DNA from: Prochlorococcus sp. AG-363-P06
GTDB lineage: Bacteria > Cyanobacteriota > Cyanobacteriia > PCC-6307 > Cyanobiaceae
Direction: 5' to 3'
Length of the DNA stretch: 64,000 nucleotides
NCBI GenBank assembly: GCA_003280025.1
Contig: QCGD01000009.1
Span: forward strand, 19,644-83,643
A program made the position numbers and the translations under genes. Positions 26,189 through 28,788 of this stretch are shown here, piece after piece. The number at the start of each line of letters is the position of its first letter. Positions within the stretch are counted from its first letter, which is position 1. The notes under the pieces were generated by a model. That model searched no databases and had not been told where the DNA came from. It was given only the letters and a program-made list of their open reading frames with translations.

Positions 26189-27292
26189 ATGTTGTTAATA
26201 AATAAAATCAAAAACAAACTGCGTCTCTCATACAGAAAAAAAAGATGGCCTGGCTTAATTAATGCTTATAAAAATTATCTACCAGTTACATCGAATACTC
26301 CTATTATATCGCTAAATGAAGGCAATACTCCCTTAATACTGAGTAATTCAATTAGTCAATTAATTGGAAACGGAACAAAAGTTTATTTAAAATATGATGG
26401 CCTTAATCCTACGGGATCTTTCAAAGATCGAGGAATGACAATGGCAATTAGTAAAGCAAAAGAAGAAGGTAAACAAGCAGTTATTTGTGCTAGTACTGGA
26501 AACACTTCTGCTGCTGCTGCTGCTTATGCTTCTAGAGGTGGATTAAAGTCATATGTTTTAATCCCTGAAGGTTATGTTGCTCAAGGAAAGCTTGCTCAAG
26601 CTTTGATGTATGGAGCGGAAATAATATCTATAAAAGGTAATTTCGATAAAGCTTTAGAAATAGTAAGAGAATTATCTACAAAATATCCAATAGAACTTGT
26701 AAATTCTGTAAATCCATACCGAATACAAGGTCAAAAAACTGCAGCTTTTGAAATAATAGATGATCTAGGTCATGCACCTGATTGGATTTGTATTCCAATG
26801 GGAAATGCAGGTAATATAACTGCATATTGGTTAGGGTTTCAAGAATATTTAAAAATAAAAAGAAATTTAAAATTACCAATAATGATGGGTTTCCAATCTG
26901 AAGGTTCTGCACCATTAGTAAATAATATAATTGTTAAAAACCCAGAGACAATAGCAACCGCTATTAGAATTGGAAATCCCGTTAATAGAGAAAAAGCAAA
27001 AAAAGTTAAAAAAGAAAGTAAAGGTGACTTTCAATCTGTAACCGACGAAGAAATAATAAATGCTTATAAAATACTTGCTAAAGAAGGTGTTTTTTGTGAA
27101 CCTGCAAGTGCAGCATCAGTTGCAGGATTAATAAAAAATAAAAATAGAATAAAAAAAGAATCAACTATTGTTTGTGTTTTAACTGGAAATGGTTTAAAAG
27201 ATCCTGATTGTGCAATCAAAAATAATGATGCGATTTTTAGAAAAAATGTTGAGCCTTTGTTACAAGATATAAGCAAAATATTAGGATATTAG
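26189..27292 (+). CDS. thrC: Threonine synthase
   Basis: [65 protein letters not shown]. Confidence 0.96.
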
Positions 27293-27630
27293 TAAAACAA
27301 AAAAATTAGTGTCTGTGGAAAGAGAGAAAAACTAAAATATAATTGTTGATAAACAGTTAAATAAAAATTAAAAATGTTAAATTATCTTTCTTAAATTTTA
27401 TAAATTAAAAAAAAATCCACATAAATAAATATCTTTCCACAGATAAAAATTTACTAAACTGATTTTCAGAAAGGGTTTTGATCCAAATTCCACAATTTCC
27501 ACAAAAACTACTACTACTATATTTTCTTAATTTTATAAATTTTATTAATAGAAACAAAGAAGAAAATAACTTATTGAATTTCATTTATTAAAAAAGTATA
27601 TTGTAGATATCAAAATAATAATCAAGCCTG
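27293..27630. other. oriC: Putative chromosomal replication origin (oriC)
   Basis: Intergenic AT-rich region directly upstream of dnaN with DnaA-box-like sequences at 27314-27321 (TGTGGAAA, reverse), 27414-27421 (AATCCACA), 27434-27441 (TTTCCACA), 27487-27494 (ATTCCACA), 27496-27503 (TTTCCACA). Confidence 0.8.
27386..27543. repeat. Pair of ~20-bp AT-rich direct repeats within putative oriC
   Basis: CTTTCTTAAATTTTATAAATT at 27386-27406 and TTTTCTTAATTTTATAAATTTT at 27522-27543. Confidence 0.6.
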
Positions 27631-28788
27631 ATGGAGATTGTTTGCAATCAAAATGAATTAAATAATGCTATTCAACTAGTAAGTAAAGCAGTTGCTTCAA
27701 GACCAACGCATCCTATTCTTGCAAATATACTTCTAACAGCTGATCAAGGAACTAATAAAATTAGTTTGACAGGATTCGATTTAAATTTAGGAATACAAAC
27801 TTCTTTTGATGCAAAAGTTAAAAATAGTGGAGCTATTACAATTCCTTCAAAACTGTTATCAGAAATTGTAAATAAATTACCAAGTGAAACTCCAGTTAAT
27901 TTGGAGGTTGATGAGAATTCAGATAATATTTTAATAAAAAGTGATACAGGTACATTTAATTTAAAAGGTATTCCATCTGATGATTATCCAAACTTACCAT
28001 TTGTTGAAAGTGGGACATCTTTAAATATTGATCCGAGTTCCTTTTTACAAGCTTTAAAATTGACAGTCTTTGCTAGTAGTAATGATGACTCAAAGCAACT
28101 ACTTACAGGTGTTAATTTCACATTTAAGCAAAAATATTTAGAATCTGCTTCAACAGATGGTCATAGATTAGCTGTAGTACTTATAGGTAATGAAGAAAAT
28201 ATTGAAGACAAAGATAATTCTTCTCTTAATGAAGATAACTTTTCTGTTACTATTCCAACTCGATCATTGAGGGAAATTGAAAAACTTTTAACTTTAAGAA
28301 GTAGTGAAAATTCAATCAAACTATTTTACGATAAAGGACAAGTAGTATTTATTTCTTCTAATCAAATAATTACAACTAGAACTCTAGAAGGAGATTATCC
28401 TAATTATTCTCAATTAATACCAGATGATTTTTCAAAACTATTTATTTTTAATACAAAAAAATTAACTGATGCTTTAGAAAGAATTGCTGTTTTAGCTGAT
28501 CAACAGAGTAGTGTTGTAAAGATTAAGTTGGATGAAAATAATTTGGCTCTTATAAGTGCTGATGCACAAGATATAGGAAGTGCTAATGAATCTATACCTG
28601 TTTCTTATTCTGGAGAAAAATTCGATATTGCATTTAATGTTAGATATCTGCTTGAAGGCTTAAAAGTTATTTCATCTCAAAATGTAGTATTAAAGTGTAA
28701 TCTCTCAACTACTCCAGCTGTTTTTGTTCCAGAAGATAATATTAATTCTTTTACTTATCTAGTTATGCCTGTTCAGGTACGTTCTTAA
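27631..28788 (+). CDS. dnaN: DNA polymerase III beta subunit (sliding clamp)
   Basis: MEIVCNQNELNNAIQLVSKAVASRPTHPILANILL ... STDGHRLAVV ... C-terminal TYLVMPVQVRS. Confidence 0.97.
   Translation: MEIVCNQNELNNAIQLVSKAVASRPTHPILANILLTADQGTNKISLTGFDLNLGIQTSFDAKVKNSGAITIPSKLLSEIVNKLPSETPVNLEVDENSDNILIKSDTGTFNLKGIPSDDYPNLPFVESGTSLNIDPSSFLQALKLTVFASSNDDSKQLLTGVNFTFKQKYLESASTDGHRLAVVLIGNEENIEDKDNSSLNEDNFSVTIPTRSLREIEKLLTLRSSENSIKLFYDKGQVVFISSNQIITTRTLEGDYPNYSQLIPDDFSKLFIFNTKKLTDALERIAVLADQQSSVVKIKLDENNLALISADAQDIGSANESIPVSYSGEKFDIAFNVRYLLEGLKVISSQNVVLKCNLSTTPAVFVPEDNINSFTYLVMPVQVRS

Follow-up and report, generated by a model that had tools for sequence, protein, structure and literature searches.

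According to a 2010 study, the chromosomal origins of Prochlorococcus are flanked by dnaN and the gene for threonine synthase and have DnaA boxes nearby (PMC2836286). The oriC pattern of cyanobacteria in general is dnaN together with TTTTCCACA (PMC4674748). In Prochlorococcus HLII populations, read coverage is bi-linear, consistent with a single origin and a single terminus (PMC9589681), and induction of dnaA immediately precedes S phase in PCC9511 (PMC2921402). DnaA-trios, repeats of three bases, assist the initiator DnaA in opening the duplex in other bacteria. In B. subtilis, the basal unwinding system (BUS) consists of tandem DnaA boxes and DnaA-trios; it is predicted widely in bacteria, with the distance from box to trios peaking at 10–13 bp (PMC8287927). 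The residues Asn187, Ile190, Ile193, Arg202, and Glu228 of B. subtilis DnaA contact the DnaA-trios, and alanine changes at these positions result in severe growth defects (PMC10721633).

Here we analyzed the gap between thrC and dnaN in a 64-kb stretch of Prochlorococcus DNA (hereafter the window). Judged from its sequence and from that of its relatives, the gap is very probably a DnaA-dependent chromosomal origin (oriC). It is ordinary in kind; its position had been described before for the genus and is now resolved to a BUS module. This prediction rests on observed features: the elements themselves, their conservation and uniqueness, the skew minimum of the related genome G062, the contact residues of DnaA, and the joint loss of the module and dnaA in another relative, G013. 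The invariance of the trio register across the family and the joint loss in G013 are the strongest new points.

Locus and base composition

The thrC–dnaN intergenic gap (27293–27630) is 338 bp long and has a GC content of 18.9%, compared to 31.0% for the window, in agreement with the AT-richness described in the initial annotation. It is bounded by the open reading frames of thrC (26189–27292, + strand; threonine synthase, 367 aa), the same flank as given in PMC2836286, and dnaN (27631–28788, + strand; DNA polymerase III sliding clamp, 385 aa). Both gene names come from the initial annotation and are consistent with the sequences and with the literature cited. The gap adjoins dnaN, as does a cyanobacterial-type oriC. 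Easily melted, AT-rich DNA is found beside the DnaA boxes and trios described below, where the stretch at 27520–27580, a candidate unwinding region, has a 60-bp mean stacking energy within the weakest 0.6% of the window.

Immediately 5′ of dnaN, a strongly kept block, TTATTGAATTT...AAAAAAGTATATTGTA (27574–27605, + strand), shows 20-bp conservation of 0.80–0.89 among relatives. This block is probably the dnaN promoter, which must account for part of the conservation near dnaN. Many other family members (L146–L149, L171–L188), probably of Synechococcus/Cyanobium type, carry a TGTGGAAGCGTGG-like motif ~30–60 bp upstream of dnaN. This motif is absent from the window and may represent a DnaA site that overlaps with the promoter of dnaN.

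DnaA boxes

The motif WWTCCACA occurs at 14 sites in the 64 kb, 5 of which are inside the thrC–dnaN gap. These five octamers, four forward and one inverted, are located to the base where they had initially been annotated. The densest 338-bp stretch contained 2 WWTCCACA in 40 Markov-simulated windows, and the maximum per 338 bp was likewise 2 when a complete relative was sampled in 40 pieces of 20 kb (0.8 Mb). When the gap's own composition was simulated, none of 2000 sequences gave five boxes (mean 0.04, maximum 2). The clustering of boxes in the gap is hence beyond chance.

Conservation was assessed with 78 Prochlorococcus thrC–dnaN sequences, the window included, all of which differ from each other. 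The inverted box TGTGGAAA (27314–27321, − strand) lies within a conserved TCTGTGGAAA, which is found in 73 of the 78 sequences, the remaining five being one-base variants. The weaker site that had been noticed near 27345 corresponds to an inverted box-like TGTTGATAA (27344–27352, − strand), which in relatives mostly reads TTGTTGAAAA. The next box, AAATCCACA (27413–27421, + strand; octamer AATCCACA, 27414–27421), occurs in this form in only 2/78 sequences and as TATTCAACA in 52/78. At 27433–27441 (+ strand), the window has CTTTCCACA (octamer TTTCCACA, 27434–27441), while relatives are usually one mismatch from TTTTCCACA, with TTTTACACA in 35/78, TTTTCCACT in 14/78, and TTTTTCACA in 13/78; the TTTCCACA core is kept in 7/78. 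The 27414 and 27434 boxes are thus consensus-like in a few strains only, and their mismatched versions in other relatives may be low-affinity sites, as far as their sequences suggest. Relatives do keep the boxes at 27314 and 27487 and, to a lesser degree, the one at 27496. Conservation across strains, proposed as a check in the initial annotation, therefore holds for the inverted box and the tandem pair (27486–27503, see below) but not for the 27414 and 27434 boxes, which are usually degenerate.

None of the five boxes is an exact TTTTCCACA, which is the typical, though not strictly required, cyanobacterial box; the closest are CTTTCCACA and ATTTCCACA. We also tried exact TTTTCCACA as a genome-wide marker of the origin, which was uninformative, with 23 scattered sites compared to 25 in the backwards control and none in the gap.

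Tandem boxes and DnaA-trios

The last two boxes form a tandem pair on the + strand, in which box 2, ATTTCCACA (27495–27503; octamer TTTCCACA, 27496–27503), directly abuts box 1, AATTCCACA (27486–27494; octamer ATTCCACA, 27487–27494). Box 1 reads AATTCCACA in 66/78 sequences, and box 2 reads GTTCCCACA in 41/78, ATTTCCACA in 19/78, and GTTTCCACA in 9/78. Straight after box 2 is a run, ACTACTACTACTA (27507–27519), that had been overlooked in the initial annotation. Following a 4-bp AAAA spacer (27504–27507), the CTA repeats CTACTACTACTA (27508–27519) make up four CTA on the + strand, or four 3′-GAT-5′ DnaA-trios on the − strand. The tandem boxes are consequently next to repeated trios, as in a BUS, at a spacing of 13 bp from box 1, the better conserved of the two, and 4 bp from box 2, the former within the 10–13 bp reported. 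At least two CTA repeats are found in all 78 Prochlorococcus loci (range 2–5), four of them in 66/78. Within the gap, conservation is concentrated in three islands: the inverted box, the BUS, and the block just 5′ of dnaN. By alignment, the most conserved element of the predicted origin is the tandem boxes plus trios, which had been missed; its core is this combination and not the count of five boxes.

The BUS module is not confined to close relatives. It was identified upstream of dnaN in 50 of 51 genomes of the picocyanobacterial family, the exception being G013. A single gapless register accommodates the module in 49/51 genomes, and C is the first base of each of the four trios in all 49; the 50th member, L133, has a partial module whose contig begins inside it. 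Scores of the family modules against the seed ranged from 19 to 32, with a shuffled maximum of 19 and the two weakest members at 19 and 20. When a model derived from other genera was applied, the window scored 32.5 at 27486 and 5.8 at the next site, and the 0.8 Mb sampled from G062 scored 35.0 at the dnaN-side site and 10.9 at the next. In a scan of 151 genomes, the box-trio pattern was present in all 13 of the same genus, and beside dnaN in all four in which dnaN was also located. Outside the family, three distant cyanobacteria of other families (G251, G188, and G153) have CTACTACTACT(A/G) at a similar spacing from TTTCCACA boxes.

Some sequence variation within the family should be noted. 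The second base of the trios is mostly T or G and the third mostly A or G (+ strand). An exact ACT-only trio pattern was rejected for the family, as it overlooks many real modules in which the trios read, for example, CTACGACTACGG. The tandem boxes are degenerate in many members (TTTTCCCC, TTTCCTCA, TTTCCCCA), with the trios retained.

GC skew and the DnaA protein

Because the genome from which the window comes is split over 19 contigs, GC skew was read in G062, a single-contig genome of the same genus (1,641,879 bp), from 40 stretches of 20 kb. As sampled, the cumulative skew traces a V, reaching its minimum at coordinate 1 next to dnaN, where an origin would be expected, and its maximum near 0.92 Mb; the check by cumulative skew that had been proposed for the locus thus points to dnaN. 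The contrast was equalled in 1 of 500 permutations, a rough figure given that neighbouring stretches are not independent. Within the window, the skew is noisy and tracks gene direction. Together with the conserved core and the published assignment (PMC2836286), the skew supports the original proposal of an oriC between thrC and dnaN.

As had also been noted, dnaA is not adjacent. It is a single-copy gene located away from dnaN, on another contig of the same genome; in G062 it is at 516.6 kb, 0.52 Mb from dnaN and far from the skew switch. The encoded DnaA (466 aa) aligns with B. subtilis DnaA (chain 8btg_A) over nearly its full length. All five equivalents of the trio-contacting residues listed above are identical, so that the residues for capturing trios are in place, and the GGKDHTTV motif for box recognition is present in domain IV.

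Loss of dnaA in a relative

Across the family, 150 of 151 genomes contain dnaA or, at the edge of a contig, a part of the gene; G119, negative in the first dnaA scan, has the C-terminal domain. Both DnaA domains are absent from G013 alone among the 151, a genome that is 95% complete (loci G013:C1, L185, L217, L220 [164001–184000], and L218–L237). At the locus that once held dnaA in G013, the surrounding genes keep their order, and ~0.3 kb, in which no remnant of dnaA was found, replaces dnaA and the next gene. These sequences indicate that dnaA and its neighbour were lost by clean deletion between conserved flanks. The thrC–dnaN gap of G013 is short, with neither boxes nor trios, and the sampled GC skew is almost flat, ranging from −0.04 to +0.02 compared to −0.13 to +0.12 in G062. 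G013 is a natural knock-out; as a single event it provides a correlation, yet one that is expected if the module serves DnaA only. Cases of dnaA loss are known from symbiotic cyanobacteria (PMC7198777). G013 may itself be a symbiont of dinoflagellates, as OmCyn is.

Outside the family, the DnaA C-terminal domain had no match in 11 near-complete cyanobacterial genomes (G258, G264, G270, G351, G360, G368, G372, G373, G374, G375, and G377), of which G258 also has no dnaN match. In the 10 dnaA-less genomes with dnaN, the 900 bp preceding dnaN (868 bp for G377) contain no strong DnaA box. At least three strong boxes are present in that interval in 0/10 of these genomes compared to 8/19 dnaA-bearing cyanobacterial genomes class-wide, a contrast that is only suggestive, as the origin may lie elsewhere in several cyanobacteria that carry dnaA.

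A further proposal is tentative and, in our estimate, somewhat more likely to be wrong than right: that the picocyanobacterial origin is set mainly by the BUS, with canonical boxes few or absent in many members (TTTTCCCC, TTTCCCCA) and recognition shifted to the trios, and that the loss of dnaA in G013 erased both the module and the skew.

Proposed initiation mechanism and alternative explanations

If the gap works as an oriC, domain IV of DnaA would bind the tandem boxes at 27486–27503. Further assembly sites, some of them of low affinity, would be provided by the inverted box (27314) and by the box-like sequences at 27344, 27414, and 27434. A DnaA-ATP filament would then grow from the tandem pair onto the − strand, where the AAA+ domain would capture the 3′-GAT-5′ trios at 27508–27519 and the AT-rich stretch would open towards dnaN. 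Helicase loading would presumably follow, and forks would depart both ways. Since some cyanobacteria carry dnaA but replicate without DnaA-oriC (PMC7198777), the presence of the parts is not proof of their use.

Three other explanations were considered. The boxes might belong to a DnaA-regulated dnaN promoter region, with replication beginning elsewhere, as DnaA can act as a regulator on boxes outside oriC (PMC7198777) and the conserved block at 27574–27605 resembles a dnaN promoter. This explanation, which we regard as improbable, does not account for the trios, the family-wide geometry of boxes and trios, or the skew minimum of G062, and no comparable site was found in the other sampled 0.8 Mb of that genome; a promoter function may nevertheless exist alongside the origin. 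Rather less probable still is that the gap is a relic origin and that replication no longer depends on DnaA, as is the case in Synechocystis PCC 6803 or Synechococcus PCC 7002. Although such losses are documented in cyanobacteria (PMC7198777), the module is strongly constrained in the 78 relatives, dnaA persists in all but one of the family genomes, the GC skew is regular in G062, and the module vanished where the family lost dnaA. A chance cluster of five octamers, for which the AT-richness of the gap is the sole argument, is refuted by the simulations, which never reached five, and by the conserved positions in relatives.

Significance and comparison with known origins

The DnaA-dependent oriC predicted here fixes the likely origin, and the likely site of opening to ~30 bp, in a highly abundant photosynthetic organism. 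This location is useful for estimating growth rates from read coverage and in the construction of replicating plasmids. Comparison of genomes across the family further indicates that, of all parts of the origin, the DnaA-trio module is the best conserved, and the dnaA-less relative G013 is a natural control. In a limited search, we found no paper that pairs "DnaA-trio" with "Prochlorococcus"; database-wide trio predictions may already include such genomes.

The locus is orthologous, in another strain, to the Prochlorococcus oriC annotated earlier, and has the same neighbours, boxes, and skew position (PMC2836286). That assignment, as given in the available text, used GC skew, neighbouring genes, and DnaA boxes, and the DnaA-trio part is new here. 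Like the oriC of Synechococcus elongatus PCC 7942, Anabaena PCC 7120, and Cyanothece ATCC 51142, which lie beside dnaN and are AT-rich with TTTTCCACA-type boxes (PMC4674748), the gap is AT-rich, adjoins dnaN, and contains boxes of this type; unlike them, it has no exact TTTTCCACA. Consensus boxes are also fewer here than in several distant cyanobacteria, where the 900 bp preceding dnaN contain 3–8 strong 9-mers. In architecture, the module resembles the B. subtilis BUS, where DnaA boxes 6/7 and DnaA-trios are arranged in the same manner, with tandem boxes followed by 3′-GAT-5′ repeats. The module differs from that of B. subtilis in that its two 9-mers adjoin directly, and in that the middle base of the trios varies across the family (T or G, + strand), their first base always being C.
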